DNA from: a virus
Reading direction: 5' to 3' (one strand)
DNA length: 64,000 bases
Virus record (IMG/VR): IMGVR_UViG_3300044729_003379
Location: 1-64,000 of that record
Shown: positions 8,261 through 64,000 of the stretch, piece by piece
How positions within the stretch are numbered: position 1 is the first letter of the stretch
Layout of the letters: the number at the start of each line of letters is the position of its first letter
Notes under the pieces: generated by a model
What the model was told of the DNA's origin: nothing
What the model saw: only the letters and a program-made list of their open reading frames with translations
The model's database searches: none
Program-made: the position numbers and the translations under genes

Positions 8261-10138
8261 ATGGATTATTCGGCAAGCAAAACAAATGCCGAAATTCTGG
8301 AAAAAGAGGGATGGCTTGAGCAAGACGAAGCTAGCGTCCTTCTTTATAAATTCTTAAGAAATAACATAACATTTGCTACCGAATTCTTTCTTGGTATTAA
8401 ATTGTTTCCATTCCAAGCTATTTTGATAAAAGCTTTATTTATTTCAGATTATACAATGCACGTTCTGGCGCGAGGCATGTCAAAAACATTCTCGACGGCT
8501 ATTTATTTGATTTTGGAACTCTTATTCAACCAAGGTTCCAACATAGGGGTTATTGCAGGAACGTTTCGACAGTCTAAAATGATTTTCACAAAAATTGAAG
8601 ATATCTTATCTAAACCAGCGGCAAAGCTTGCGATGGATTGTATAGGAACCAAAAACTACATCCAAAAAGGGACCGATCAATGGACATTGAAAATAGGAAG
8701 AAGTAGGGCTATTGCCCTTCCTCTTGCCAATGGGGAAAGACTGCGAGGCTTTCGTTTTAATCGAATTGTTATTGATGAGTTTTTGACAATGCCAGAAAAG
8801 ATTTTTAACGAAATTATCATGCCCTTCTTGGGTGTTATTGAAAATCCAACGCAACGAAAAGAACTTCGGGATTTGGAGACAAGATTAATTGCCCAAGGAA
8901 AGATGCAAGAGTCAGAAAGATTCGTTTGGCCAAATAACAAACTCATCCTTCTTTCTTCTCCTTCTTTCAAATTTGAATATATGTATAAGCTGTATAAACA
9001 GTTTATTGACCTCATAATGGGTCAACATGATTCTCAAAAATTTAATAGAGAAGAGGCTGGAGCAATATCCGCTTATCGGGCAGTATTTCAGCTTTCTTAT
9101 GATCTTGCTCCTCCAGAACTTTACGACCAAAATCTTCTCGATCAAGCAAGAGCAACAATGAGTAAGGCTCAATTCGACAGAGAGTTTGGCGCACAGTTTG
9201 GCGACGAAGGAGATTCTTATTTCAAAATGAGTCGAATGATGCAATGCACCATTCCAGAAGGAGAATTCCCTGCTGTTGAAATTATTGGAGACCCTGCGGC
9301 AGAATATATTTTATCCCTTGACCCTTCTTGGTCCGAAAGTGAGGAGGCAGACTTTTTCAGTATGCATGTGGGCAAGATTTTAAAACCAGAGAACAAAGTA
9401 GCAATCGTTCATTCTTTTGCTTTAACTGGTCAACCCCTAAAGGTCTATATGACCTATTTTCATTATCTTTATACTCACTTTAATATTGTAGGCTTGATTG
9501 GAGATAGGAACGGCGGTTTACAATTCATAAGCGCATGTAACGAGAGTGAGCTTTTCAAGAATTCTAAAATACAAATTAAGTTTGTGGAAGGAGAGTTTGA
9601 TAAACCAGAAGATTATCACACAGATTTGTTGGCTCTTAAAAATTCAATAAATACAGAAGATCATAAGATTTGTTTTCTTAGAAATCCATCCTCTTCTTGG
9701 ATTAGAACAGCAAATGAAATGCTGCAAGCAAGCATTGATCATAAGCGTATTTTATTTGGTTCTGGGGCATTTTTGGGAGACAAACACTTTGAAGCACAAA
9801 GCAAGGCTAAGATTCCAATTGCCGATTTAAAATGGGAACCAGAATATAGGGCTTCTTCAGAAGATGCTTGTAAGGTGGATTTAATTGATTATTGCAAACA
9901 AAATATTGAACTTACCAAAACTCAAACATCTAATATTGAAGTTACGACAAGCCCCCAAGGAACTCAATCCTTTGACCTTCCTCTTCACATGAGAAAACAA
10001 AGAGGGCCAAATAGACCAAGAAAAGACTTATACTCGTCTTTGGTTCTTTTAAATTGGTGGGCAAAGGTTTATTTTGATTCCTTGGAAGTTAAAGAAGAGA
10101 AAAGGGTTGTTTCTACATTTGTTCCTTTTGCTATCTGA
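8261..10138 (+). CDS. terL: Terminase large subunit
   Basis: 625 residues. The ATPase domain has a variant Walker A (LARGMSKT, residues 69-76), adenine-binding strands (GVIAGTFRQSKM) and Walker B IVIDEF (residues 169-174). The C-terminal RNase H-like nuclease starts at LSLDPSW with Asp354, then GDRNGG and a further acidic strand near LIDYC. It packages and cuts concatemeric DNA. The start at 8231 (635 residues) would overlap the previous gene by 17 bases; the Met at 8261 gives a tighter fit to the operon, but both are possible. The usual GxGKS loop is replaced by a GMSKT form. Confidence 0.9.
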   Translation: MDYSASKTNAEILEKEGWLEQDEASVLLYKFLRNNITFATEFFLGIKLFPFQAILIKALFISDYTMHVLARGMSKTFSTAIYLILELLFNQGSNIGVIAGTFRQSKMIFTKIEDILSKPAAKLAMDCIGTKNYIQKGTDQWTLKIGRSRAIALPLANGERLRGFRFNRIVIDEFLTMPEKIFNEIIMPFLGVIENPTQRKELRDLETRLIAQGKMQESERFVWPNNKLILLSSPSFKFEYMYKLYKQFIDLIMGQHDSQKFNREEAGAISAYRAVFQLSYDLAPPELYDQNLLDQARATMSKAQFDREFGAQFGDEGDSYFKMSRMMQCTIPEGEFPAVEIIGDPAAEYILSLDPSWSESEEADFFSMHVGKILKPENKVAIVHSFALTGQPLKVYMTYFHYLYTHFNIVGLIGDRNGGLQFISACNESELFKNSKIQIKFVEGEFDKPEDYHTDLLALKNSINTEDHKICFLRNPSSSWIRTANEMLQASIDHKRILFGSGAFLGDKHFEAQSKAKIPIADLKWEPEYRASSEDACKVDLIDYCKQNIELTKTQTSNIEVTTSPQGTQSFDLPLHMRKQRGPNRPRKDLYSSLVLLNWWAKVYFDSLEVKEEKRVVSTFVPFAI

Positions 10139-10185
10139 AAGTAACTTTTAAAGTTAAAATTTCAGACTTTTGTGTAAATGGCATT

Positions 10186-12189
10186 ATGCCAAGAAGATAT
10201 ACTAAAAAGAATAACGAGTATTGGAACAATTTGTCCAAGGCAACAATTCCGAATAATAATGAACCTCTTGTTATTGATTTTTCTCCAGAGTTGATTGGAG
10301 AAGGCTATTACGCAGAAGAAAGTGTGGCTAGTAGCCGCTTATCTTCTTCTTCGGGTTCTAGAATCTCTTCAAGAAGTAATTTGATCACCTCTTCTCTTGT
10401 TAGGAAAAGATTTAAGAACATTGACGACGGACTTCTTCCTTGGGATTATTCTGCCGATGGTGTTTCTGTGAGAGATGCTATTGTTCTATCTCAAAAGGCT
10501 TATTTTAATGTTCCAGTTTACAAATCAACAATTGATTTATTATCGGAATTCTCTAATTCAGAGATTTATTTTAAGAAAAATACAGGAACGGATAAAAGCA
10601 GAAAATTTGTAGAAGCTTGGTTGAATAAAATCAAAATTTATGATTTAAAAGATCAATTTTTTAGAGAGATTTATAGAAGCGGAAATGTTTTTATGCTTCA
10701 TTTGGATGCAAAGGTTAATAAAGATTCTATAAAAGCCTTTAGCGAAAGCCCTTTGCCATCTCTTTCTGAAAAAAGAATCCCAGTTCGATATATAATGCTA
10801 AATCCTGCTGATATCGAAGTTACGGAGCAAATGAATTTTGGTGAATATAGTTATGCAAAGGTTTTGACAAATTTTGAAATGGCAAAACTGAAGAATCCTA
10901 CGACGGAAAAAGAAAAAGAGTTATTTAACTCTTTACCGCCAGAAGTCAAAAAAGATATTCGTAATTCGGATAAAAAAGCAAACACCTTCATTGTTAATAA
11001 GGAAATTCAAATTCCTTTGGACGTTATGAAACTGCATCCTGTTTTTTATAAGAAGCAGGATTATGAACCCTTGGCCATTCCTCCGGGTTATTCTGTTTTG
11101 GACGATATTAACAAAAAGATGGAATTGAAGAAGGTTGATCAAGCTATTGCCAGATCAATTGAAAATGTAATCTTGCTTGTTACAATGGGAGCAGAGCCTG
11201 ACAAAGGAGGGATTAATCATCAAAATCTCAAGGCGATGCAAGACATTTTTAAAAGTAAAAGTGTCGGTCGTGTTTTAGTTTCCGATTATACAACTAAAGC
11301 CGAATTCGTTATTCCTGATCTTCAAAAGGTAATGGGTAAGGAAAAGTATGAGGTTCTTAACCAAGATATTCGTGAAGGATTAAATAATATTTTACTTGGA
11401 GAAAGTAAGTATGCCGATACAGAAATTAAATTAAAGATCTTTCTTCAAAGAATCGAAGATGTAAGAGAGAGATTTTTTAAAGACTTTTTACAACAAGAAG
11501 TTGATAGAATTTGTGAAATCATGGGGTTAAAAAAACCGCCGCGTCTTGAATTCAAGAGAACGGATGCCCTTAATTATTCTGAAATGCAAAGACTTATTGC
11601 TAGAATGGTTGAGCTTGGAATTCTCACTCCTCAAGAAGGTATGGACGTTATTGACAAGGGTGTTTTTCCAAATGCCGACGAACTTGGTTCAGAACAACAA
11701 AATTTTGTGGATCAAAGAAAGAAGGGATTTTGGTCTCCATTGGCTCTTGGTGGTTCTATTGGAGAAGTTGATGGAGAATCCTCTAATAAATCAACACAAC
11801 AATCTCAAAATCCAACAGTTTCTGCCCCAACGGGCGGTAGACCAACTGGAACTGGTGTTGAAAAACAAAGCCAAGCCCATTTTGCCGTTGACGCTATTAA
11901 GGCTTCCGTTGAAACCATTTCAAAGTTTCAAAAACAAGCCGAAAACCTTTACAAGGAAAAGCTTTCGCTCAAAAAACTTAGTAAGGATAAAAAGGATTTA
12001 ATTTACGATATTTCCTTAGCCATTATACAGGGTTGCGATAAGAACAAGTGGAATGATAAATTAAATGAAGTCATTGTAAATCCATCAATTCTTGCTTCAT
12101 TAAGTGTAAACCCCAAAATATTAGATATATCTAATGAACACGAATTATCATTAGAAGCATCTAGTATCTTATATCATTCAACAATTTAA
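10186..12189 (+). CDS. Portal protein
   Basis: 667 residues. After a Ser-rich, probably disordered N-terminus (residues 40-70) it shows portal features: VPVYKSTIDLLSEF, FFREIYRSGNVFMLH, PVRYIMLNPADIEV, then a long helical stem region and RFFKDFLQQEVDRI. A Gln/Ser/Thr-rich linker near residue 545 and a helical C-terminal tail follow. The position between the terminase and the protease/capsid genes supports the call. Twelve copies would form the packaging and connector ring. The 47 bases upstream hold an AACTTT-T-AAAGTT dyad but no convincing promoter. Confidence 0.8.
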   Translation: MPRRYTKKNNEYWNNLSKATIPNNNEPLVIDFSPELIGEGYYAEESVASSRLSSSSGSRISSRSNLITSSLVRKRFKNIDDGLLPWDYSADGVSVRDAIVLSQKAYFNVPVYKSTIDLLSEFSNSEIYFKKNTGTDKSRKFVEAWLNKIKIYDLKDQFFREIYRSGNVFMLHLDAKVNKDSIKAFSESPLPSLSEKRIPVRYIMLNPADIEVTEQMNFGEYSYAKVLTNFEMAKLKNPTTEKEKELFNSLPPEVKKDIRNSDKKANTFIVNKEIQIPLDVMKLHPVFYKKQDYEPLAIPPGYSVLDDINKKMELKKVDQAIARSIENVILLVTMGAEPDKGGINHQNLKAMQDIFKSKSVGRVLVSDYTTKAEFVIPDLQKVMGKEKYEVLNQDIREGLNNILLGESKYADTEIKLKIFLQRIEDVRERFFKDFLQQEVDRICEIMGLKKPPRLEFKRTDALNYSEMQRLIARMVELGILTPQEGMDVIDKGVFPNADELGSEQQNFVDQRKKGFWSPLALGGSIGEVDGESSNKSTQQSQNPTVSAPTGGRPTGTGVEKQSQAHFAVDAIKASVETISKFQKQAENLYKEKLSLKKLSKDKKDLIYDISLAIIQGCDKNKWNDKLNEVIVNPSILASLSVNPKILDISNEHELSLEASSILYHSTI

Positions 12190-12193
12190 TAAA

Positions 12194-13699
12194 ATGTGGA
12201 CAGAAGAATCAAACTCAAATTTATCTACTAAAATTGCTGGTTCAATTCGCGTAATTGATTCTAGTGAGTTTAAAAAATACGGAATTACAGAACAATCTGT
12301 TGCTTCTGCTAGAAAAACCTTAATGCCCCCTTCTTTTGATGTAGAGAAGAATATTGACGTTCTTCCTGTTGTTTTTAATTTGGCTGTAGTAAACCGATTT
12401 AACGAAAACGATGACGCAATTAAGACTTCCGTTGCAATGGAGTTGGTAAAACAATTTATCAATAAACCCATCAACATTGAACACATGAAGGATAAAATTG
12501 TTGGGCATATTATAAATGCTTCTTTTTCTGACAAACAACCAGAATACGAATATAACGAAATCGAAGCTTACAAAGACAGGAAAGACCCATTCTATATTTC
12601 CGCTGCTGGAATTATTTATCGTCATATTTTTCCAAAATTAGCCGATGAAATTGTTGAAGCCTCTAACGAAAAAAGCGAAAAATATCAAAGCTTATCAACT
12701 TCTTGGGAAGTTGGTTTTAGAAATTATACATTAGGAATCGGAGAAGGTTCTTTAGAAGAAGTTGAAGAACTGTCAGAAGAAGATGAATCTTATTCTAGTC
12801 TAAAAGATAATTTAAAGGCATATGGAGGAACTGGATATTCCAATAAAGGAAGAGTCAGAAGAATAATTAATGGTCCTGTTTATGGATTAGGCGTTGGTAT
12901 TACTACTTCTCCTGCCGCAAATGTTAAGGGCGTTTATATAATGTTAGAGGAAGAAGAAAACCAAGAAGAAAACGAAGATAATATGGAAAATGAAAAAGAA
13001 AATGATATTAATAATAATGATTCTATTTCCCAAGAACATAAAAAATATGTAAAAGCTAACAAACCATCTCTTTCAATGGACGAAAATCAGTTTAACCAAC
13101 TTATCGCGAAGCTTGAAGAAGCCAAAGCTTCTTCAGAAATCGCCCTTCAGATCAAAAAAGTGTTTGATCAACAGACCGAATGGCAATCAAAAGCCGAGGC
13201 TGCTCAAAAAGATCTTGATTCGACCCGTTCGGAACTTGAGTCCATCAAAAACGAATTTAAACAAACTGCGGAAGAACTTGAATCTCTCAAGAGAGATCTT
13301 GAAGCTAAAGCCGCTGCTGAACTTTTCAATTCCAGAATCCAAACCATTCTTGAGAAATACGAACTGACCGAAGCTCAAGAGAAGGTTGTTATCGAAGATA
13401 TCAAAAATCTTGATTCAAGCGAAGCCTCTTTCGAGAAGTTTCAAGAAAAGGCTGAAATTATTTTCTCCAAACAAAGCAAAGAGGCTCTTGCCTCTCTTGA
13501 AGAAGCAAAAAGAGCCGAAATTGAAAAGGCCGCAGAAAAACTCTTAGAATCCAAGGCTTCTACCTCCGAAGAAACCTTAGAACTTAAAACAGAAGAAGCG
13601 GAAGCCTCTTCTCTCCCCAACAACACTGGAGAAGGTTCTCAAGAACTCACTCTCTTAGACAGAATTAAAAAAACCGGACTTCAAGTTTCAACCAACTAA
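12194..13699 (+). CDS. Prohead protease fused to scaffold-like coiled coil
   Basis: 501 residues in two parts. Residues 1-260 look like a prohead core protease: a His in IEHMKDKIVGHI (about residue 96), a Ser in YQSLSTSWEV (about residue 170), and a strand-rich fold ending at GVYIMLEEE. Residues about 265-501 begin with an Asp/Glu/Asn-rich linker and continue as a long charged coiled coil, as expected of a scaffolding domain. Such protease-scaffold fusions are known in phages that lack a separate scaffold gene, and none is present here. The assignment of catalytic residues is by pattern only. Confidence 0.7.
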   Translation: MWTEESNSNLSTKIAGSIRVIDSSEFKKYGITEQSVASARKTLMPPSFDVEKNIDVLPVVFNLAVVNRFNENDDAIKTSVAMELVKQFINKPINIEHMKDKIVGHIINASFSDKQPEYEYNEIEAYKDRKDPFYISAAGIIYRHIFPKLADEIVEASNEKSEKYQSLSTSWEVGFRNYTLGIGEGSLEEVEELSEEDESYSSLKDNLKAYGGTGYSNKGRVRRIINGPVYGLGVGITTSPAANVKGVYIMLEEEENQEENEDNMENEKENDINNNDSISQEHKKYVKANKPSLSMDENQFNQLIAKLEEAKASSEIALQIKKVFDQQTEWQSKAEAAQKDLDSTRSELESIKNEFKQTAEELESLKRDLEAKAAAELFNSRIQTILEKYELTEAQEKVVIEDIKNLDSSEASFEKFQEKAEIIFSKQSKEALASLEEAKRAEIEKAAEKLLESKASTSEETLELKTEEAEASSLPNNTGEGSQELTLLDRIKKTGLQVSTN

Positions 13700-53198: not shown

Positions 53199-53440
53199 AT
53201 AATGAAGAAGAGGAAGATGGAAATGATGAACTTGAGGTTTTTTCCGAATCTCTATTATGTAAAATTTATGATAGCACAGGGAACAAGAGAGGATGCAATA
53301 AGGGATTCTTGATGTTCATGGTAAACCACAATGGAGAGATTATTTATGTGTCAAAGTTCTCAGACACGGTAACACAAATTGCTTTAACAGAAACCGCTAA
53401 AAAAATCCTGTTAGAAGAAGATTTCCAAGAAGATGATTAA
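53195..53440 (+). CDS. Hypothetical acidic protein (81 aa)
   Basis: 81 residues, very acidic at both ends (EEEEDGNDELE at the start, EEDFQEDD at the end) with one strand pair (LCKIYDSTGNKRGC, FLMFMVNHNGEIIYVSKF). It overlaps both neighbours (nuclease and DnaB helicase). Possibly a helicase-loading or inhibitor protein, but this is context only. Confidence 0.55.
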   Translation: MNNEEEEDGNDELEVFSESLLCKIYDSTGNKRGCNKGFLMFMVNHNGEIIYVSKFSDTVTQIALTETAKKILLEEDFQEDD

Positions 53441-54974
53441 GTCGTTCGAATTAGAAAGAAAGGTTTTATCTGGGCTTTTACAGCACCCAAAATCTTGGTC
53501 TGAAGTTTCAACTTTCTTGGTTGAAGAAGACTTCTACGCTGAAGACAGCAAGGTTCATATAACCTTGTTTAAGATGATTAGGAATGCATTAAATAGTAAA
53601 GAAGCTATTGATGACACCATTCTGATTGATCGTCTAGCCAGACTCAATACGACTTTTCCAGATTCTATTGATCGAGACGAATACATTAGGTCTTTGGTTT
53701 TCAATAAAATTTCAACAGATGTTTTCTTAAACTCAGTCAAAGAGCTTAAAAAATACACCTTCAAACGAAAGGCTTTAAACATTTGTAATAAAATAGAACA
53801 ATTCACAAAAACAGTAGACCCATCAAAACCCTATTCTTTTATTGTAGAAGAAATTGATAGAATTTACAATAATGATATTCGTGGATTTGAAATGGGAGAA
53901 GCCAAACTTGTAAATTTGGCCAAGATTGCAGAAGAGATTATTGAAGACAGGGGAGACAATCCACCAGAAGAAGTTGGGGCAATGGGTCCATTCCCAACCA
54001 TTAATAAAATTTATGGTTCTCTTGTGAGGCCGGGGAACTGCACTTGTTTTGCCGCTAGAGCTAAAAGTGGAAAAACCACGTTAATGATAGATATGTTATT
54101 GAAGATCTCTTACGAAAATAAGTTGCCGATTCTGCATTTCGATAATGGGGAAATGAGTGAAGAGGAACTCGTTTTTAGAATGGTCTCTGGAATATCTGGT
54201 GTTCCCGTTTATCTTCTTGAAAGTGGCAAATGGAGAACTCACGGATACAAGGATCTTTCCGCCAAGGAAGTCGTTAGCCGTGTTCGGGCGGTATGGGAAA
54301 GAATGAAGGGTATCACGATTCTTTATGAGAACGTAGCAGGAATGACATCGGAAGAGATGGTCTCCCTTCTTAAAAGAATTTACTTTTCAGAAATTGGAAG
54401 AGGCAATCCTCTCATCTTTTCCTTTGACTATCTCAAGACAGATTTCAACAATCTAGGAAAAGGTTCTGATTGGGCTTTTGTTGGAAAACTACTCCACCAT
54501 TTTAAACAAACAATTAGCAGAGAACTCAAATTCGACGGTAAACCAACAGTAGCTATGGTAACGTCTGTTCAAACAAACAGGTCTGGCATTGTTACAAATA
54601 GAAATTCGGATACAGTTGTCGATGACGAAAGCGTTATTGCGTTATCTGACAACATCATTCAATTCGTTTCTCACCTATTCCTTCTTAGGAAGAAGACAAT
54701 GGATGAAATTGTTGAAGAAGGACCAGAGTTTGGCACCCACAAGTTAAAATGCTTGGCAGCAAGACATTTAGGAGAAGATTCTTTTGGTCACATTAATCCT
54801 GTTGATTGGGTTGATGGTAGCAAAAAAGATAATTGGATCAACTTAAAATTTGACAACTTTAATGTTGAAGAAAAGGGCGATGCTCGCGATATTATTAGAG
54901 CAATAAACGGAGAAGATGTTGGAGCAATTAGATCAATGGGGGCAGAAAATGAACTTCCAGAATCTTTAAGATGA
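53433..54974 (+). CDS. DnaB-like replicative helicase
   Basis: 513 residues. The N-terminal helical domain is DnaB-like (FELERKVLSGLLQHPKSW, DDTILIDRLARLN). The C-terminal RecA-like ATPase has Walker A in ARAKSGKTTLM (about residues 207-217), HFDNGEMSEEELVFRMVSG as the following motif, Walker B IFSFDYLKTD, and later motif DNIIQFVSHLFLLRK. A 5'-3' hexameric helicase at the fork. Its stop codon overlaps the primase start by 4 bases. Confidence 0.88.
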   Translation: MIKSFELERKVLSGLLQHPKSWSEVSTFLVEEDFYAEDSKVHITLFKMIRNALNSKEAIDDTILIDRLARLNTTFPDSIDRDEYIRSLVFNKISTDVFLNSVKELKKYTFKRKALNICNKIEQFTKTVDPSKPYSFIVEEIDRIYNNDIRGFEMGEAKLVNLAKIAEEIIEDRGDNPPEEVGAMGPFPTINKIYGSLVRPGNCTCFAARAKSGKTTLMIDMLLKISYENKLPILHFDNGEMSEEELVFRMVSGISGVPVYLLESGKWRTHGYKDLSAKEVVSRVRAVWERMKGITILYENVAGMTSEEMVSLLKRIYFSEIGRGNPLIFSFDYLKTDFNNLGKGSDWAFVGKLLHHFKQTISRELKFDGKPTVAMVTSVQTNRSGIVTNRNSDTVVDDESVIALSDNIIQFVSHLFLLRKKTMDEIVEEGPEFGTHKLKCLAARHLGEDSFGHINPVDWVDGSKKDNWINLKFDNFNVEEKGDARDIIRAINGEDVGAIRSMGAENELPESLR

Positions 54975-55984
54975 CCGATTATGGATCAATTTTAAGAAAC
55001 ATAGGCTATAATCTGATCGATAGGGGTTCTTATTGGCAGACAAACGCTATCTTCCGCAATGGAGACAACAAAACATCAATCAGAATTTACAAAGACACCG
55101 GAGTTTGGAGCGACTTTGTTGAAGGAAACAAACCTCTCCCATTCGAAACATTACTAAAGAAAACATTAAAGACAAATGATGTATCAAAATACATAGAACA
55201 ACAAAATACGTCATTTACCTTTTACAAAAAAATAGATAAACTTTTGAAAGAAGAAAAAACATTTCACGATAGTTGCTTAAAAAAACTATTACCAGACAGG
55301 CACTATTTTGAGTCAAGAGGCATCCCTAGTTGGGTTCAAGAAGAATACCAATGCGGGTTGGCAACTTCTGGCAAGCTATATCAACGCATCGTTTTTCCAG
55401 TTAGGAGAAATGATGGGAAAATACATGGATTCATTGGCAGAAAGGTTGTAGACAACAAACCAGAATCTCCAAAGTGGTTGAATTTTGGAAAAACCTGTGA
55501 TTGGTTTTATCCATATTTTTCTGTAGAAGGCGTTGAGGAACAAATAGAAGAAGAAAAGAGGGTTTTTGTAATAGAATCTATCGGAGATTCTATGTCTTTA
55601 TATAGATCGGGTGTAAAGAACAACATCGTTTGTTTTACAAACAATATTAAACCAAAAATAACATCGAGATTATCAAATCTTTCGGTAGATATTGTTTTAT
55701 CATTAAATAATGATTCTGGCCAAAACAGAGGATTCGACGGGGCTTTGGCAAGTTTTATAAAACTTGCTGATACAATCGATTTAGAAAGAATATGGTTTTG
55801 TCCACCTCCAGTTGAAGATTTTGGAATGATGAATGATCAACAAATTCGTGAATGGAGAAGTTCTTTAGATTTTTCAAATTCTTCGAAGGAGTCTCTTCTT
55901 CAATTGATTGGTTATGCTCCAAAAGCAAAACTTGCAGCAAACTTGCTTCCAAAATTAAAGAAAATAGAAAAAAGCTTGGAATGA
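54971..55984 (+). CDS. DnaG-type primase (no zinc finger)
   Basis: 337 residues. A short N-terminal strand region resembles the primase core entry (GSYWQTNAIFRNGDN, VWSDFVEG). GIPSWVQEEYQCGLA and IVFPVRRNDGKIHGFIGRKV are the RNA-polymerase-domain signatures. The TOPRIM domain has VFVIESIGDSMSLYRSGV and a reduced second motif in LNNDSGQNRG. There is no N-terminal Cys zinc finger. It makes primers for the phage fork with the helicase just upstream. Confidence 0.8.
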   Translation: MTDYGSILRNIGYNLIDRGSYWQTNAIFRNGDNKTSIRIYKDTGVWSDFVEGNKPLPFETLLKKTLKTNDVSKYIEQQNTSFTFYKKIDKLLKEEKTFHDSCLKKLLPDRHYFESRGIPSWVQEEYQCGLATSGKLYQRIVFPVRRNDGKIHGFIGRKVVDNKPESPKWLNFGKTCDWFYPYFSVEGVEEQIEEEKRVFVIESIGDSMSLYRSGVKNNIVCFTNNIKPKITSRLSNLSVDIVLSLNNDSGQNRGFDGALASFIKLADTIDLERIWFCPPPVEDFGMMNDQQIREWRSSLDFSNSSKESLLQLIGYAPKAKLAANLLPKLKKIEKSLE

Positions 55985-57033
55985 AGAACTATTTGTCTGC
56001 ATCAAAGATCAAAAAACTACAAGAATGTAGTTGGCAATATTATTGTCGTTATATATTGAAACTTCCAGACGACTCCAATGACGGAGCAAAAATGGGATCG
56101 ATTTGTCATAATGTTTTTGAATATCTTGGAAAAGATAAACATAAAAGACATTTCAATAAAATAATTAAAGCCGAAACAATTAAGGGAAGTGAAGTTGTCA
56201 GTAGATATGTAAATATTTGTGCCAATAAAGAAAGTGTCAATTCAGAGACCCACCTTACTTTAATTGATAAAATGATTTTAGAAGGACTCAAGTATGATTT
56301 CTATGGAAAGAAACTTGGAAAACCAATTGAAGCCTTGTCTGAAATTGACTTCGATTTAACGATAGACGAGAAAGATAAGAAATACAGAATCGTTGGATTT
56401 ATTGATAAGTTGTTCTTATATAAGAATGGAGCGGTTATAATCCGAGACTTCAAAAGTTCAAAGAAGAAGTTTGAGGGAAAGGAAGTTTATGATAACGTGC
56501 AAGACTTGATGTATAGACTTGCCGTTAAAAAGCTATACCCAGAACATTATAATCCAAAGATGGAATTCGTCTTTCTTCAATTTTCATGTGAAAATGGAGA
56601 CGGTATTATTGAAACACCTAGCGTTTGCGATAAAGAATTAGAAGGTTTTGAATATTTCCTTACAGACGTTCAAAATGTCGTTGATCATTTTGACGAAAAG
56701 ATAGCCACACAAAACATGGCCTATGACAAAGGTTATGTAAACAAGGACCAAGGTTTCTCAGGAAGATTAGTTTGTGGAAGATCAGATCATCCAGAAGAAA
56801 AGAAAATAGATGGAACGAACAAATGGTATTGCAGAATGAAGTTCCCCTTCTTTTATTGGGTTTTATTAGACGAAAAAAATAACATAATCAATTCTGCAAA
56901 AACTGAGGAAGAATTGGGTTTTCCTGCAAAAAACCAGAGAATAGAAAAAAGATTCTACAAGGGATGCCCTAAGTTTAAATTTCTTGAATACTCTCAAGAA
57001 ATGAATATGAAAGCAAAAAACGAAGGATTTTAA
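55981..57033 (+). CDS. Cas4/RecB-like PD-(D/E)XK exonuclease
   Basis: 350 residues from the ATG at 55981, overlapping the primase stop. LSASKIKKLQECSWQYYCRYIL and GSICHNVFEYLGKD at the start, then FIDKLFLYKNGAVIIRDFKSSK (the D-x(n)-D-x-K nuclease core) and a QDLMYRLAV helix, are typical of PD-(D/E)XK nucleases of the RecB/AddB/Cas4 family. Cys16 and the late Cys (VCGRS, YCRMK, GCPKF) could bind a 4Fe-4S cluster, but the spacing is unusual. Probably processes DNA ends for recombination. Confidence 0.78.
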   Translation: MKNYLSASKIKKLQECSWQYYCRYILKLPDDSNDGAKMGSICHNVFEYLGKDKHKRHFNKIIKAETIKGSEVVSRYVNICANKESVNSETHLTLIDKMILEGLKYDFYGKKLGKPIEALSEIDFDLTIDEKDKKYRIVGFIDKLFLYKNGAVIIRDFKSSKKKFEGKEVYDNVQDLMYRLAVKKLYPEHYNPKMEFVFLQFSCENGDGIIETPSVCDKELEGFEYFLTDVQNVVDHFDEKIATQNMAYDKGYVNKDQGFSGRLVCGRSDHPEEKKIDGTNKWYCRMKFPFFYWVLLDEKNNIINSAKTEEELGFPAKNQRIEKRFYKGCPKFKFLEYSQEMNMKAKNEGF

Positions 57034-57078: not shown

Positions 57079-57357
57079 ATGAAAATCTCTGAATATAAAA
57101 TTGCTCGCGCAAAACTCTACATGACAGAGGACGATAAGAAAGTCCTTGAAGAACAAATTAAGGAAAACAAAATTTCACCAGAAATGAAAAGCCGTTTGGA
57201 TTCTTTGATTTTTAGACTACTTCCAAAACGTCTTCGTAGAAAGAATGGGTGTTTCGGAAGCCCCGGCCTCAATCGAAAAGAAAAGAGAAAGAAATTAATT
57301 CAACAAAAGATTCAAGAAATCGTTGATCAACAAAAAGAAGAAGAGTCTAAAGAATGA
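57079..57357 (+). CDS. Hypothetical basic protein (92 aa)
   Basis: 92 residues, MKISEYKIARAKLYM onward, very Lys/Arg-rich and helical, with a GCFGSPGLNRKEK turn in the middle and a charged C-terminal helix (EIVDQQKEEE). It overlaps the PHP-domain gene by 4 bases and so is translationally coupled with it. It may be a small polymerase-associated or DNA-binding protein. Not recognised. Confidence 0.6.
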   Translation: MKISEYKIARAKLYMTEDDKKVLEEQIKENKISPEMKSRLDSLIFRLLPKRLRRKNGCFGSPGLNRKEKRKKLIQQKIQEIVDQQKEEESKE

Positions 57358-58019
57358 TTCCTATTTTTAAGTCTCATTTTTCTATCGGAAGATCTATTCT
57401 TAATTTAGAAAAGATTTTCGAATACGATCAAGACAAGATCGTATTGGTAGAAGATTCTATGGCTAGTTTTCGTAAGGCCAAAAAGACGGCCCTTAAAGCA
57501 AAAAAAAGATTCATATTTGGTCTTCGGTTGGAAGTAAAAAGCGACGGCGACAGCAGCAAGTTGATCTTCTTCGCGAAAAGCAATAAGGGAATAGATTCTC
57601 TTCGCCGTATTTATACGAAAACGTTCACCGAACAAAATGGGGTTTACCAATTAAACAAAGAGGATCTTCAAGAGATAGAAATTGCTGTTCCATTTTATGA
57701 CTCTTTTTTGCATAAGTCTATTCATAATTTTGGTTGCTTTGAATTAGATTTACCGGAAAACGTTACTTTTTTTGTTGAGAGAAATAATCATCCGTTTGAT
57801 TTTCAAATAGAAAATGCAATCAACAAATTTGGAGGAAAAACTGTTTTAGTAAAGTCCATCTTTTACGACAAGAAAGAAGATTTCAAAGCCTTTCAATTTT
57901 GTAAAGCAATTTGTAATAGAAAAATAGGTAGGTCTCCCGTATTTAACAGGCCAGAATTAGAAGAATGTTCTAGTGATGAATTTTGTTGGGAGTCCTTGCA
58001 AGAATATAGCAAGCAATAG
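57354..58019 (+). CDS. Orphan PHP-like domain of DNA polymerase III alpha
   Basis: 221 residues that align by eye with the N-terminal PHP domain of bacterial DnaE. SHFSIGRSIL (residues 7-16) is the degenerate motif 1 strand; IVLVEDSMASFRKAK with RFIFGLRLEV (residues 29-61) matches the TDHGNMFG...GCE segment; then KLIFFAKSNKGIDSLRRIY and, near the C-terminus, SIFYDKKEDFKAFQFCKAI (usually HYLxxEDxxAHxxLxxI). The metal-binding His residues are mostly replaced, so any phosphatase or exonuclease activity is probably lost. The polymerase core itself starts 4.3 kb downstream without this domain. The gene ends in TAG, one of only two that do. Confidence 0.72.
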   Translation: MIPIFKSHFSIGRSILNLEKIFEYDQDKIVLVEDSMASFRKAKKTALKAKKRFIFGLRLEVKSDGDSSKLIFFAKSNKGIDSLRRIYTKTFTEQNGVYQLNKEDLQEIEIAVPFYDSFLHKSIHNFGCFELDLPENVTFFVERNNHPFDFQIENAINKFGGKTVLVKSIFYDKKEDFKAFQFCKAICNRKIGRSPVFNRPELEECSSDEFCWESLQEYSKQ

Positions 58020-58037
58020 TAAACGTGTTTTTAATTT

Positions 58038-58298
58038 ATGAATATTACGAAAACCCAATGGAAGGGACTGCAAAAAGAATGGTTCGATTGCGAATACGCG
58101 GCCATGCAACCTGTGGACGCGGTGCGTATGCGGTTGACCAACGAAACCAACGAGGTCGAGCGGCTGGCAAACGGAATTGCGCTGGCGCTGCACAAAAATC
58201 GACACTTGGCGGATGGCGATAATTGCACACTCATCGACTTAAAGCGACTGGTCCCAGACTGGGAAGCGCGTCTGTTTTATCTTCTGCCTAACAATTAG
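58038..58298 (+). CDS. GC-rich foreign hypothetical ORF (86 aa)
   Basis: 86 residues, MNITKTQWKGLQKEWF onward, with a TAG stop. Direct counting gives 36 of 60 G+C at 58081-58140 and 34 of 60 at 58141-58200, against 18 of 60 at 57841-57900. Codons such as GCG, CTG, CGG and GTG are used, unlike any neighbour. The first few codons are AT-rich and merge into the local sequence. It appears recently acquired from a GC-richer genome. There is no function I can name (a helical protein with a possible Trp-anchored N-terminus). Confidence 0.6.
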   Translation: MNITKTQWKGLQKEWFDCEYAAMQPVDAVRMRLTNETNEVERLANGIALALHKNRHLADGDNCTLIDLKRLVPDWEARLFYLLPNN

Positions 58299-58362
58299 AT
58301 CAGACTTCCAAAGGATAGTCTGTATCGAAAGTTCCAGATTGTAAAGTTTGTAGAAAAAAGTC

Positions 58363-58390
58363 TTGACAACAGCAAAATTTGTGATACATC
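58363..58390 (+). promoter_or_regulatory. Leaderless promoter of gene 58396
   Basis: TTGACA (58363-58368), 16-bp spacer, TACATC (58385-58390), five bases to the ATG at 58396. Upstream, CAGACT/AGTCTG (58301-58322) makes a short hairpin after the GC-rich ORF. Confidence 0.7.
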
Positions 58391-58395
58391 ATATC

Positions 58396-58875
58396 ATGAA
58401 TATACACAATACAATTTTAACCTCAGTTAAAGATCAAGATGATTATGGGTGTTTTGAATTCGAAACAAAGAAATTCTCAGACTTGTCTAAAGTTGAGCTA
58501 CAATCTATTTTGAATTACATTCTTAGTCTTAATATAGATCAAGAAACAATTCTCAACAGAAACGGCTTTTATTCCTTAGAACAGGTCAAAGAGAAGAAGG
58601 GGTTGAAGTTCACAAATAAAGACGATATTTTCTACAGAAGGAATTATAATTTTGAAAAAATTACTCTTGGCAAAAAATTAAACGACTATCAATTAGAAGA
58701 ACTCAGTCAGTGGAAACAGGTCTTTGTTTTAGTTGAAATGCCTAAAGAAATCAAAGATCAACTTGAAGTTTTCGAACAAAAGAAAAAGGAAAAGAAAAAG
58801 AAATTAGAAGAAGCCAAGAAAACAAGAGAAATAAAAAAGGCCAAAAAACTTCTAGAGCAATATGGGGAAAAATAA
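58396..58875 (+). CDS. Hypothetical protein with basic C-terminal helix (159 aa)
   Basis: 159 residues from MNIHNTILTSVKDQDD; an in-frame Met at 58363 lies inside the -35 box and is rejected. The first 110 residues are mixed alpha/beta (CFEFETKKFSDLSKVELQSIL, NRNGFYSLEQVKEKKG). The C-terminus is a long Lys/Glu coiled coil (KKKEKKKKLEEAKK). Not recognised. Confidence 0.6.
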   Translation: MNIHNTILTSVKDQDDYGCFEFETKKFSDLSKVELQSILNYILSLNIDQETILNRNGFYSLEQVKEKKGLKFTNKDDIFYRRNYNFEKITLGKKLNDYQLEELSQWKQVFVLVEMPKEIKDQLEVFEQKKKEKKKKLEEAKKTREIKKAKKLLEQYGEK

Positions 58876-58876
58876 A

Positions 58877-59254
58877 ATGACATTATACGCAATTATAATC
58901 AAAGATACTCAAGAACTTTTAAACCCCAAAACATTTAAAAGTTATTGGAAAAATTATGGTAATAATAGTTTATATGGATGGAGGGTTCCAAAAAAAGTTT
59001 ATGATTCCATTGGAAGAGCTAAAGCTGGATTTTCTCATGTTCCAGAAGAAATGAAAGATAAATTAGCCATCGCAGAATTTAAGATTTCAGACATTCTTAT
59101 TGAAGGGACGGAATTAAAAAAGATTCAAGATGAAAAAAAAGAAAGGCAAGAAAAAGAAAGGGAGCAGAGAAATTTGAGATATAAATTAGAAAGAGCAGAA
59201 AAAGAATTAAAACAAGCCGAAGAAAATCTGAGGAATCTTCTTGACAAATCATAA
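58877..59254 (+). CDS. Hypothetical protein with coiled-coil C-terminus (125 aa)
   Basis: 125 residues from MTLYAIIIKDTQEL; the upstream Met at 58862 would overlap the previous gene by 14 bases. The N-terminal half (NYGNNSLYGWRVPKKVYDSIGRAK) is aromatic and could contact a nucleic acid or peptide. The C-terminal half is a charged coiled coil, similar in style to the preceding protein, so the two may act as a pair. Not recognised. Confidence 0.6.
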   Translation: MTLYAIIIKDTQELLNPKTFKSYWKNYGNNSLYGWRVPKKVYDSIGRAKAGFSHVPEEMKDKLAIAEFKISDILIEGTELKKIQDEKKERQEKEREQRNLRYKLERAEKELKQAEENLRNLLDKS

Positions 59255-59268
59255 GAAAGCATTATATT
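59241..59268 (+). promoter_or_regulatory. Leaderless promoter of gene 59274
   Basis: TTGACA (59241-59246), 16-bp spacer, TATATT (59263-59268), five bases (GAATC) to the ATG at 59274; it lies across the end of the previous gene. Confidence 0.85.
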
Positions 59269-59273
59269 GAATC

Positions 59274-59639
59274 ATGCCATGTAACTGCGATCATTTAAAG
59301 GCAACCCAACTTGAGGTTGAAACCAGCAAAGTAGCCTGTCTTTTGGGAGAACTAAGAGGGGTTAAAATTAATAAACATTCTTGGGAGGGATACCACCCAG
59401 ATGTTTACGGAAATGTTGATAAGAAACTAGCCGATAAACTTACGAAGGAACTTTGTTCAATCCTTCAAAAAGAAGACGTTTCAAAATATAGTCTCGAAAT
59501 GCAAATTTGGTGGAGAGACCACCAAGAGGCTGATAGAAAGAGAATTGAGAAAGAGTTTAAAGAAAAAAAAGACAAAGAAGCAAAAAACAAAGCATTATCA
59601 AAATTGTCCGAATACGAGAAAAGGCTTTTGGGACTATGA
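59274..59639 (+). CDS. Conserved phage hypothetical protein (121 aa)
   Basis: 121 residues: MPCNCDHLKATQLEVE onward, with VACLLGELRG, then WEGYHPDVYG and SLEMQIWWRDHQEADR. This set of blocks (CNCD, CLL-x-EL, GYHP-x-VY, YSLEMQ-WW-x-DH) recurs in many unrelated phages as a small protein of unknown function, by recollection rather than search. The N-terminal Cys pair could bind metal. The C-terminus is a charged helix. Confidence 0.65.
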   Translation: MPCNCDHLKATQLEVETSKVACLLGELRGVKINKHSWEGYHPDVYGNVDKKLADKLTKELCSILQKEDVSKYSLEMQIWWRDHQEADRKRIEKEFKEKKDKEAKNKALSKLSEYEKRLLGL

Positions 59640-59833
59640 AATTAAATCTGACAATCTTAATTATCTCGTTGGCTTTAACAGGATGTGAACGTCCAACAAC
59701 CCAACAAAGATGCAATCATAAATTCTCAAATTGGGGAGAACCAATTACTCATACAAATTGGAATGGATCAATTTCTAAACAATTTAGATCGTGTTCTTTG
59801 TGTGGAGAGGCAGAAAGTCGAATGATTTTTTAA
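59636..59833 (+). CDS. Small lipoprotein with Cys/His cluster
   Basis: 65 residues. The N-terminus MKLNLTILIISLALTGC has a hydrophobic core and a lipobox LALTGC (Cys17 would be the lipidated residue). The mature part has CNHKFSNWGE and SCSLCGEAESR, three Cys and a His that could bind zinc. Phage lipoproteins commonly block superinfection or act in lysis. It is the only clear lipoprotein here, overlapping its upstream neighbour by 4 bases. Confidence 0.65.
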   Translation: MKLNLTILIISLALTGCERPTTQQRCNHKFSNWGEPITHTNWNGSISKQFRSCSLCGEAESRMIF

Positions 59834-59860
59834 TTTTGGAACATCAAATAGAAAAAGACA

Positions 59861-61162
59861 ATGCTCACGAATAAATTAGATAATCCAAACTATCGAGCCA
59901 AGATCGTTAAGATTGATCGACTTGAGCCTCATCCAAATGCAGATAAACTGCAAATTACTGTTGTAGATTTCCAACGCATTATTGTTGGAATTGATACAAA
60001 GATTGGTGATTTGTTTGTATATTTTCCATTAGAGTCTCAGATTAATGATGAATTTATTTCATTTTTTAATGGGTATTCTGATGCAGAATCTAATTTGGAT
60101 AAAACCAAGAAGGGATTCTTTGGAAAGAAGGGAAGAGTTAAGGCGACCAGACTGAGGGGAGAAATTAGCGAGGGATACCTTCATCCCCTTTCTTCTTTCA
60201 ATACATTTCTTGCCGAAAAAGGCGTCAAATTCCAAGCTACCGAAAATAATATTGGAACCGAATTTGATTCAGTTGGTGACTTGTTGATTTGCCAAAAATA
60301 TATCATCAAACAAAAAGGAGAACCGGGATCAAGAAAACAAAAAGAAGCAAAGGTCTTAGAAAGACTTGTCGAGGGTCAGTTGCGTCTTCACGCAGATACA
60401 GAAGCCCTTAAAAAGAATATGCATAAGATTAATCCTGATGATTTTATTTCAATTTCTTATAAAATGCATGGGTGTAATTTTACTTTTGCAAAAGTTCTTT
60501 GCAAAAAGAAGTTGAACATTTTCGAGAAGATTCTCAAAAAATGCGGCGTTAATATTGTTGATAAAGAATACGATTGGTGTGCTGCGAGCCGCAGGGTCGT
60601 GAAAAATATCGAAGGAGAAAAAGAGCATCAACACTTTTATTCTTATGATGTTTGGACAGAAGCGATGCACAAAATCAAAGACAAAATCCAAAATGGATAC
60701 ACTTTGTATGGAGAGATTGTTGGGCATCTTCCCTCTGGATCAGCAATTCAGGGATTATATGATTATGGTTGTAAACCAAATGAATACAAAATCTTTGTGT
60801 TCAGAATAACTTATACGACGCCTGATGGCAGCGTGATTGAACTTACCCGCCCTCAAATCGATAGATATTGTGCCAAATATGAACTAGAGACCACCCCTCT
60901 TTTTTACTACGGTCGCGCAGAGGGGGTTTATCCCGAACTGGATGTAAAAGAACATTGGCACGAAAACTTCTTAAACAATCTTATTAGAGATTATAATGAG
61001 AAGGACTGCTTCATGTGCCGCAATAAAGTTTCAGAAGAAGGGGTGGTATTGGCAAAAGACGGCTTGACATTTGAAGCTTTCAAGCTTAAGAGTATTAGAT
61101 TTCTTGAAGAAGAAACAAAGCTACTAGATAAGGAACAAACAAATATCGAAGATGAGAATTGA
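59861..61162 (+). CDS. RNA ligase, Rnl5/DraRnl-like
   Basis: 433 residues. An N-terminal OB-like domain (residues 1-115: AKIVKIDRLEPHPNADKLQ, IIVGIDTKIGDLFVYFPL) precedes the nucleotidyltransferase. The adenylated lysine is Lys201 in SYKMHG; motif IIIa is YTLYGEIVG, motif IV EGVVLAKDG, and motif V FEAFKLKS. An N-terminal OB domain before the ligase core is the arrangement of the Deinococcus radiodurans ligase, while T4 Rnl1 and Rnl2 lack it. Phage RNA ligases repair tRNAs cut by host defences; no polynucleotide kinase is seen in this window. Confidence 0.82.
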   Translation: MLTNKLDNPNYRAKIVKIDRLEPHPNADKLQITVVDFQRIIVGIDTKIGDLFVYFPLESQINDEFISFFNGYSDAESNLDKTKKGFFGKKGRVKATRLRGEISEGYLHPLSSFNTFLAEKGVKFQATENNIGTEFDSVGDLLICQKYIIKQKGEPGSRKQKEAKVLERLVEGQLRLHADTEALKKNMHKINPDDFISISYKMHGCNFTFAKVLCKKKLNIFEKILKKCGVNIVDKEYDWCAASRRVVKNIEGEKEHQHFYSYDVWTEAMHKIKDKIQNGYTLYGEIVGHLPSGSAIQGLYDYGCKPNEYKIFVFRITYTTPDGSVIELTRPQIDRYCAKYELETTPLFYYGRAEGVYPELDVKEHWHENFLNNLIRDYNEKDCFMCRNKVSEEGVVLAKDGLTFEAFKLKSIRFLEEETKLLDKEQTNIEDEN

Positions 61163-61454
61163 ATTGCCAAAGTTATTTGAAGAACCCGTTTTCGTTGACT
61201 TTGATGTTGATGAAAAGAAGAGAAGAATTTATTTCACTTGGGATTTCGGAATGACAGAAGATTTTTCACTTGATATGATCTTCTTGGGTATCTACAGAAT
61301 TGACGACCCGACGAAAAAGGTCATTAGACTTTGCGAATATGATTTAAACCATGCATTTGAGCATTTGCAAGAAGATCCAAATTATAGAGCTTATCATTGG
61401 GCGCTTTATGGAAATCTAAAAGATAGAAAGTGGATTAAGAATGATTCCCTATAA
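61152..61454 (+). CDS. Hypothetical protein (100 aa)
   Basis: 100 residues, MRIELPKLFEEPVFVDFD onward, mixed alpha/beta and acidic, with aromatic strands (RRIYFTWDFGMTEDFSL) and an ending LYGNLKDRKWIKNDSL. It overlaps the RNA ligase by 11 bases and the DnaQ gene by 14 bases. Not recognised; translational coupling suggests a shared role in nucleic acid processing. Confidence 0.6.
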   Translation: MRIELPKLFEEPVFVDFDVDEKKRRIYFTWDFGMTEDFSLDMIFLGIYRIDDPTKKVIRLCEYDLNHAFEHLQEDPNYRAYHWALYGNLKDRKWIKNDSL

Positions 61455-62058
61455 TCAAAAATACTGCATCTTTGACTTCGAAACAGAGGGGTTGAATTTG
61501 AAATATAGTCGCCCTTGGGAATTGTCTTACATTCTAACAAGTGGATCGAAAGTAGAAAAACAGGAACAAATCTACATCGATATTCCTGATTTAAATTTGT
61601 CGAAGGAAATCATTGAACTAACCTCTTTCGATAAACAAAAATATGAAGCCAAAAAGGTTATTCCAGAAACGGCTTGGAAAAAGTTTTCGAAATACCTCTT
61701 TGATCAAGACTACATTTTAGTTGGGCAAAACATCTTAAGATTTGACGTTTATATGATTAAGATCTTGGCTGATATTGTGAATGAACCTCTGGACTTTTCT
61801 TTCATGAACAGAATGCTTGATACCCGCCCTCTTTACCTTTCTTATAAAGAAGGGTTGGATAGGCCAAAAAACTCTTCTCTTTTAGAGTGGCAATACAAAA
61901 TTCTTAACGACAGAACCATTAAAACAAAATCAAGCCAATTAACAATGCTTAAAGCTTTTGGGATAGATTTCGACAAAAATCTCTTGCACGATGCCCTTTA
62001 TGATTGTAAAATGAGCTTGGAAATTTTCCTTCAACTTAAAAAAACACTAAAACTATGA
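61441..62058 (+). CDS. DnaQ-type 3'-5' exonuclease (proofreading)
   Basis: 205 residues. Motif I is CIFDFETEGLN with Asp12 and Glu14. Motif II is VGQNILRFDVYMI with the Asp of RFD. Motif III is HDALYDCKMSLEIF with the His and Asp of a DEDDh nuclease. This is the epsilon-like proofreading subunit that usually pairs with DnaE, whose polymerase core follows two genes later. Confidence 0.85.
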   Translation: MIPYNQKYCIFDFETEGLNLKYSRPWELSYILTSGSKVEKQEQIYIDIPDLNLSKEIIELTSFDKQKYEAKKVIPETAWKKFSKYLFDQDYILVGQNILRFDVYMIKILADIVNEPLDFSFMNRMLDTRPLYLSYKEGLDRPKNSSLLEWQYKILNDRTIKTKSSQLTMLKAFGIDFDKNLLHDALYDCKMSLEIFLQLKKTLKL

Positions 62059-62330
62059 CAGTATACGAAGCAAGAAAACAGGGCTACAAAGTTAGAGTTA
62101 ATCACGTTAGAGACCTAGAGTATATTCTAGACCCAAATAGTCTAGAGGGACCATACATTAAAGCCTTCCCAGTTGTTTCTCCAAAAGGAGGTAAGACAGT
62201 TGTTGAAGTCAGAGACCTAGAAGGTAATGAAAAATTTGGAGTAGCTTATTGCCACAAACAAGACAATTATAACAAGAAGATCGGAACCAAATTAGCTCTC
62301 GAAAGAGCATTGTCTCCTCTAAACGATTGA
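62055..62330 (+). CDS. Hypothetical protein (91 aa)
   Basis: 91 residues, MTVYEARKQGYKVRVNH onward, strand-rich (GGKTVVEVRDLEGNEKFGVAYCH) with a helix at the end. It overlaps DnaQ by 4 bases and precedes the polymerase by three. Not recognised; perhaps a small polymerase accessory or DNA-binding protein. Confidence 0.55.
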   Translation: MTVYEARKQGYKVRVNHVRDLEYILDPNSLEGPYIKAFPVVSPKGGKTVVEVRDLEGNEKFGVAYCHKQDNYNKKIGTKLALERALSPLND

Positions 62331-62333
62331 CGC

Positions 62334-64000
62334 ATGTTTGAAGATTTTTCAGACTACGATGACTGCGAACCCGCTGGACTTGAATTGCCAAAAATTCATT
62401 TATCAGATGAAATGCTTCAAAGTCTTGATTTGCAAAAGGACGCTTCTTCGAAAGAAATCTTGAGCAGATTAATTAGACTTGGCATTCAAAAAAAGGGTAT
62501 CGATAAACTTCCAAATAAACAAGAATATTTCGCAAGAGCTAAACAAGAGCTAGATACTTTCGAAGAATTGGGTTTTACTGATTATATTCTGTTAAATTGG
62601 GATATTGTCAAATTTGCCAAAGAATCCAACATTCCAGTTGGAGAAGGAAGAGGAAGTGCCGCCGGAAGTCTAGTATTGTATCTTTTAGATGTTGTAGAAA
62701 AAGACCCTCTGCAACACAGCCTTTTCTTTGAAAGATTTGTCAGTAAAAATAGAGCAAAGAAGATAACAGACAAACATGGCAAGGTGTTTCTCGACGGGTC
62801 TTTGGCTCCAGACGTAGATACAGACGTATCTTATGATCAAAGACAATTGGTGATTGAATATATTGAAAATACACATGTAGGAAAAACATCCAAAATCCTT
62901 ACATTCAACACCCTTTCTTCAAAACTTCTAATCAAAGAAGCTGTCAAATATTTCGACAATTCTTCAGAAGAAGAGGCAAACAGAATCTCTTCCATGATTC
63001 CCAAAGAACATGGCATTGTTTCTTCTTTACAGAAAGCAAAAGAAACAGAGGGAGAGTTTCAAGAATGGTGCAACAAGAATCTTAAGATTTTTAATATTGC
63101 CAAAAAAATTGAAGGCTTAAACAAAAATACAGGAGTTCACCCATCCGGTATTGCTATTTGTTCCCAAAACATCAAAAACGTTGTCCCTCTACAATTGACA
63201 AAAGAAGGAGAACTGATCTCTGGATATGAGATGGATGACGTTGCGGATTTGATGGTTAAGTTTGATATCTTGGGACTTAGAACCCTTACTATCGCAGATA
63301 AGTGTTGCGAAAAAATTGGAATAAAACTTTCTGATATCGATTCTGAAGACCCATTTATTTATGAAGTCTTACAGGATTTCAATCATCCTTGTGGGTTGTT
63401 TCAAATTTCTGCTGACACAAACTTTGAAGTAACAAGAGCAGTAAAACCTGATAATTTATCAGAACTGTCTGACGTTGTTGCTTTGGCTAGACCGGGAGCG
63501 TTGGACTATGTTGATCAATATGTCCAGAATAAAAATGCGCCTAGAGATCTAGATTTGCATAGAGAGTTGGATGCTATCCTTTCTTCTACAAAAAACACAA
63601 TTTTGTATCAAGAGCAGTTGATGAAAATTGCGAATAAGGTTTTCGGTTTGTCTCTTGAAGATGCCGAAACTTTAAGAAGAATTGTCGGGAAGAAGAAGGT
63701 GGACGAAATGCCAGCATGGAGGGATAAGATTTTTGACGCTGGAGCAAAAAGCGGGTTATCAGATGATATTTGCGAATTCTACTGGAATAGTTTGGAAGCA
63801 AGTGCAAATTATAGCTTCAACAAATCTCACAGTATTTGTTATGCATCTCTTGCTGCAAAAACAGTATATTTAAAATACAAATATCCTCAACAATTTTTCT
63901 GTTCAATTTTAGAAGTAGCAGAATTTGAGCCAGAACCGTTAAAGGTTATTGCCGAAGTTTGTAAAGAACTTCCTTATTTTGGAATTGAATTACTCCCCCC
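62334..64000 (+). CDS. dnaE: DNA polymerase III alpha (DnaE) core, 5' part, no PHP domain
   Basis: Open from the ATG at 62334 through the window end (555 codons; the 3' end is missing). The frame starts just after the PHP-domain boundary. The core shows VGEGRGSAAGSLVLY (residues about 102-116), catalytic Asp160 and Asp162 in PDVDTDV, HP-SGIAI, and the third Asp311 in KFDILGLRTLT, then NTILYQEQLMKIA and LRRIVGKKK. There is thus a true C-family polymerase, with palm and fingers but no N-terminal PHP. The PHP domain is encoded separately at 57354-58019. Together with DnaQ, primase and helicase it makes the phage fork. Confidence 0.88.
   Translation, partial: MFEDFSDYDDCEPAGLELPKIHLSDEMLQSLDLQKDASSKEILSRLIRLGIQKKGIDKLPNKQEYFARAKQELDTFEELGFTDYILLNWDIVKFAKESNIPVGEGRGSAAGSLVLYLLDVVEKDPLQHSLFFERFVSKNRAKKITDKHGKVFLDGSLAPDVDTDVSYDQRQLVIEYIENTHVGKTSKILTFNTLSSKLLIKEAVKYFDNSSEEEANRISSMIPKEHGIVSSLQKAKETEGEFQEWCNKNLKIFNIAKKIEGLNKNTGVHPSGIAICSQNIKNVVPLQLTKEGELISGYEMDDVADLMVKFDILGLRTLTIADKCCEKIGIKLSDIDSEDPFIYEVLQDFNHPCGLFQISADTNFEVTRAVKPDNLSELSDVVALARPGALDYVDQYVQNKNAPRDLDLHRELDAILSSTKNTILYQEQLMKIANKVFGLSLEDAETLRRIVGKKKVDEMPAWRDKIFDAGAKSGLSDDICEFYWNSLEASANYSFNKSHSICYASLAAKTVYLKYKYPQQFFCSILEVAEFEPEPLKVIAEVCKELPYFGIELLP

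Follow-up and report, generated by a model that had tools for sequence, protein, structure and literature searches.

A free, degenerate PHP domain and a PHP-less DnaE as predicted separate parts of a DNA polymerase III core in uncultivated tailed phages

In a broad clade of uncultivated tailed phages the PHP domain of DNA polymerase III alpha is encoded as a protein of its own, apart from a PHP-less DnaE, with the gene of a DnaQ-like exonuclease between the two; on present sequence evidence this separation is fixed across the clade. The window in which it was noticed consists of 64,000 bases (1-64000) of a 73,726-base IMG/VR virus record, the terminase and tape-measure genes of which indicate a tailed phage. 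A PHP domain on the polymerase chain has been called universal or strictly conserved in bacterial C-family members (PMC12926913, PMC3666897), yet here an inactive PHP has been cut loose while staying under strong selection, which bears on why inactive PHP domains are retained. As the domain is separate, what it does other than catalysis can be probed by omission and add-back with the polymerase left untouched.

The first-pass annotation of the window had read the 221-residue product of 57354..58019 (plus strand) as an orphan PHP domain and had proposed a profile search against PF02811 as a check. Its coordinates are right, and the assignment is upheld by a match to phrog_405 (DnaE family, PHP part; E 7e-6), by profile-profile comparison and by a fold search. 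The proposed check came out less clearly: alone, the window protein is a weak PF02811 match of 22.5 bits against a Pfam cut-off of 26.4, whereas the protein of the relative L003 reaches 40.9 bits and the cut-off is exceeded in 10 of 32 related contigs. A profile of the orphan family, with 77 members aligned, matches canonical DnaE columns 11-252 (E 6e-6). At the sequence level the PHP profile gave too faint a match in the PDB (E 0.096), and identity was settled by the AlphaFold model of the window protein (pLDDT 89.1, pTM 0.87), whose first 19 PDB matches are all Pol III alpha or PolC (E 1.8e-11 to 2.6e-6), led by 2hnh, the E. coli alpha subunit (E 1.8e-11, TM 0.78 over the query). Non-polymerase PHP enzymes follow at E 3e-4 or worse. 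Since Pol III alpha comes first and other PHP proteins match far more weakly, the orphan is of the DnaE type and not another PHP phosphoesterase, and profiles and predicted fold together confirm the assignment of the product as a free DnaE-type PHP domain. PFYDS is an invariant motif of the family.

The active PHP exonuclease motif comprises nine ligands, HHDHEH[C/H]DH (PMC12926913). It had been claimed that most of the metal ligands were lost in the orphan; the loss is real, and its extent was understated, as the aligned family retains essentially none of the nine and, whatever the register, has at most one or two positions with a possible ligand. The positions of the Glu, His, Cys, Asp and final His are taken by R, K, F, S/T and Y/F, and the residues next after alignment positions 40 and 65 are D and R. 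No first histidine pair is left when the family is aligned with the PHP of Rhizobium phage RHEph10. H8, offered as a metal ligand by the automatic alignment, was rejected, because anchoring on the YS motif and on RHEph10 puts it at the canonical E11. RHEph10 itself (L187:3978-7391) has a fused DnaE with a degenerate PHP, in which RTDFSLGESIL, an SLGESIL-type motif, stands where the orphan has KSHYSIGKSIL, and both have R at the position of the Glu ligand. The RHEph10 fused PHP may possibly be linked to the origin of the orphan family, to judge from these residues.

The polymerase gene begins at 62334 on the plus strand and runs past the window (62334..64000) to contig base 64889, encoding 851 aa with palm, thumb, fingers and OB fold. 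As had been noticed at first reading, it starts where the PHP domain ends: the DnaE family profile aligns to canonical columns 294-1095 (E 6e-102). The PHP and DnaE profiles thus tile canonical DnaE without overlap, so that only the PHP and a linker of about 40 columns are absent from the polymerase. The window protein matches PF07733 (E 7e-59) and PF17657 (E 5e-33), and the structural matches of its model (pLDDT 87) are Taq, M. tuberculosis and E. coli alpha. D160, D162 and D311 are invariant across the family and correspond, by motif, to the catalytic aspartates of the E. coli enzyme. A complete PHP domain, the finding named beforehand as speaking against a split, was encoded neither in frame with the polymerase nor elsewhere in the 73.7-kb contig. 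A second PHP was likewise absent from 32 related long contigs (72-200 kb, which may be partial), each of which had no more than a single PF02811 match, in a frame similar in size to the orphan. The break had been described as free of intein sequence, and indeed no extra segment resembling an intein half is present at the PHP C-terminus or the polymerase N-terminus. A product rejoined by an intein was therefore rejected: intein segments are lacking, a third gene lies between the parts and the three frames are complete.

This third gene (61441..62058, plus strand) encodes a DnaQ-like DEDDh 3'-5' exonuclease of 205 aa, identified by RNase_T (E 3e-14), by phrog_192, the DNA polymerase exonuclease subunit (E 1e-21), by residue conservation and by its position between PHP and polymerase. 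All five DEDDh residues (D12, E14, D102, H183, D188) stand at 100% in the family. The protein stops some 17 residues beyond its last motif and is without the C-terminal tail by which E. coli epsilon binds the alpha PHP, so any contact with the PHP would have to differ from that in E. coli.

In the window the two halves are 4.3 kb apart with, as first estimated, about eight genes between them (eight or nine frames by our count). That distance is correct for the window and atypical of the family, most relatives having the exonuclease gene alone in between. The genes between PHP and exonuclease (58020..61440, plus strand), among them an RNA ligase (59861-61162), are not part of the core and vary among relatives; the cassette looks scattered here because genes have been inserted into a three-gene unit of PHP, exonuclease and DnaE. 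Upstream on the same strand (53433..57033), and in the same order in L003, lie further replication genes, namely a DnaB-like helicase (53433-54974), a DnaG-like primase (54971-55984) and a PDDEXK/Cas4-like nuclease (55852-57033). The primase and nuclease frames (54971-57033) share 133 bp as listed, and an internal ATG, that of MKNYLSASKIKKLQ, is probably the true start of the nuclease.

Scans of IMG/VR found 228 relatives with the PHP pair as query, 80 of which were fetched, and at least 442 with the polymerase pair, of which 80 were fetched. Profiles built from the fetched loci hit 162 PHP frames and 164 polymerase frames, none shared between the two sets, and no frame in about 160 loci matches both profiles. 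The two-piece polymerase is accordingly found in about 160 related loci and the fused form in none; since some loci are near-identical or lie within one contig, the non-redundant number is better given by the 81 triples left below 90% polymerase identity. The 80 loci reached by the polymerase query only, and thus not selected for a split, also lack a fused PHP. The order PHP, exonuclease, DnaE on one strand holds in 156 of 156 evaluable loci, 153 scored directly and three in which the first possible start of the exonuclease overlaps the PHP end slightly beyond the margin. The gap between PHP and polymerase is 555-656 bp, room for the exonuclease alone, in roughly two thirds of the loci and ranges from 555 bp to the 4314 bp of the window, which is the extreme. 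With each frame taken to begin at its earliest possible start codon, common overlaps are 4 or 14 bases between PHP and exonuclease and 4, 19 or 1 between exonuclease and polymerase.

Median dN/dS values of 0.066 (PHP), 0.052 (exonuclease) and 0.045 (polymerase) show purifying selection on all three genes. That the orphan is a gene fragment in decay, or an artefact of assembly or frameshift, is scarcely credible. The weak Pfam score and vanished metal ligands speak for it, but conservation and selection already contradict it, with an identical break in the 81 non-redundant loci, the low dN/dS of the PHP gene, a confident fold and the gene of an exonuclease separating the two halves. Distance matrices of the PHP and the exonuclease correlate with that of the polymerase at r 0.87 and r 0.91, respectively; such agreement, like the conserved gene order, would arise from co-inheritance alone as well.

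With PHP, exonuclease and DnaE in separate genes, what is one polypeptide in bacteria would here be assembled from free subunits. We consider it likely that they form a Pol III core of three subunits, with the inactive PHP as a scaffold held to the polymerase by non-covalent contacts and a separate exonuclease as proofreader; the binding as such, the stabilisation and the exonuclease contact are all inferred. One gene cluster would then supply the phage with its own Pol III core. The free PHP, its metal binding lost, would have become a structural subunit, docking at the place that the fused PHP holds in bacterial alpha, where it might stabilise the polymerase and help to position the exonuclease, to which proofreading would fall alone. 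Barros et al. reported an association between ligand loss in PHP domains and separate proofreaders, and also a stabilising effect of the inactive E. coli PHP on the entire polymerase (PMC3666897). The ligand loss throughout the orphan family together with the invariant DEDDh residues of the exonuclease matches that association. Against the proposed core stand the missing epsilon-like tail of the exonuclease, the score of the window PHP below the Pfam cut-off, the sufficiency of co-inheritance to explain synteny and matched distances, and the lack of an isolate match in the phage collection searched.

Two other roles of the free PHP have to be weighed. It could act mainly on the exonuclease, adapting or regulating it, or belong to a PHP-exonuclease proofreading module engaged part of the time, and not be a constant part of the polymerase. 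The PHP and exonuclease genes adjoin and often overlap, the PHP is the epsilon-binding site in E. coli, and the alpha-epsilon chimeras 4gx8 and 4gx9 are among the structure matches. This role is nevertheless unlikely, given an exonuclease without an epsilon-like tail and an E. coli PHP that is integrated with the whole polymerase and unfolds with it as one unit (PMC3666897). Still less probable is an action apart from the phage polymerase, for instance by imitating the PHP of the host alpha and so drawing off the host's proofreader or interfering with its replisome. In favour of this, the orphan is free, lacks the ligands of an enzyme and has in PFYDS an invariant motif of its own, but the PHP accompanies exonuclease and polymerase in every evaluable locus, and the alpha of the same genomes is without a PHP domain. 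A subunit of the polymerase core remains the preferred reading. An extension of it, rather doubtful though not far-fetched, is that the scaffold exchanges freely and that its binding and release with the exonuclease could switch the polymerase between states, such as proofreading and fast synthesis, an arrangement that would then be fixed throughout this broad clade.

Among known systems the E. coli Pol III core (alpha, epsilon) is alike in combining a DnaE whose PHP is catalytically inactive with a separate DEDDh exonuclease, and differs in that its PHP lies within alpha and has lost its ligands less completely. PolC of Firmicutes carries PHP, exonuclease and polymerase on one chain, the exonuclease being inserted into the PHP part. 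There, too, the three belong to one enzyme; in the phages they are three genes, the exonuclease gene lies between those of PHP and polymerase, and the polymerase is DnaE-like. In Microbacterium phage OverHedge, which we take to be a member of cluster EF, DnaE is divided at the domain boundary seen in the window, gp55 (345 aa) being the PHP and gp56 (767 aa) the DnaE without it; its PHP, however, keeps ligand-like residues and looks metal-binding, and the genes adjoin without an exonuclease. The two alpha genes of Microbacterium cluster EF have been remarked on (PMC7302621). Cellulophaga phage phiST (gp44/45) and Mycobacterium phage Cuke (gp86/87) also make Pol III alpha from two genes, but there the cut is inside the polymerase part and the N-terminal piece is the PHP region joined to some polymerase. 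The split DnaE of cyanobacteria is encoded by two genes and rejoined by protein splicing through a split intein; it is cut elsewhere than the phage enzyme, which is without intein segments.

In a tree of the polymerase core the 29 window-type sequences make up a single, long-branched clade (100/100); phiST falls elsewhere, and so do OverHedge and Cuke, which group together. From this placement the separations most likely arose independently. Fused DnaE was found in phages of Streptomyces, Bacillus, Rhodococcus, Rhizobium and Pseudomonas, in Bixzunavirus and in other phages. Navo and SarahRose, the best-covering isolate DnaE matches, seemed to lack a PHP from the match start but have it fused in frame. 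The records MT836213.1 and OQ572403.1, filed as phage, look like bacterial DNA at this place, with housekeeping genes around their fused DnaE. Splitting of phage DnaE is thus known from annotation, once at the PHP/polymerase boundary. The open-access papers searched do not describe a PHP subunit that is free, and in them the fixation of this split over a broad clade, a fully degenerate PHP and a proofreader gene in between are undescribed, hence new. Hundreds of uncultured phages gain a recognisable replicase core, part of which goes unnamed in ordinary annotation.

The orphan PHP was absent from the isolate phages searched with two orphan PHP queries and the C-terminal motif, and a host scan of genome contigs gave matches only in metagenome-assembled contigs of mixed taxa. 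Nine of the latter (L169-L177) have been assigned to metagenome-assembled genomes of bacteria and even of archaea and are most likely phage contigs. A search of 12 long contigs for a sliding clamp (PF00712) found none.

Some relatives show further interruptions of DnaE. In L034 (9372-13250), L050 and L052 (both 9372-12576) it is present as two frames (591-594 and 395 aa) 0.2-0.9 kb apart, and Rfam at the gathering threshold reported no intron in L034 or L050. In L111 (9995-13042) an intein-like start (CFVSGQSVKLYNGD) breaks the polymerase at GRG and the rest follows in a later frame, while the 1262-aa DnaE of L041 (9926-13714) appears, by eye only, to contain an intein-like insertion after the IRR motif, starting with CVTGDTRF and ending with IIHN before CVGKKK.
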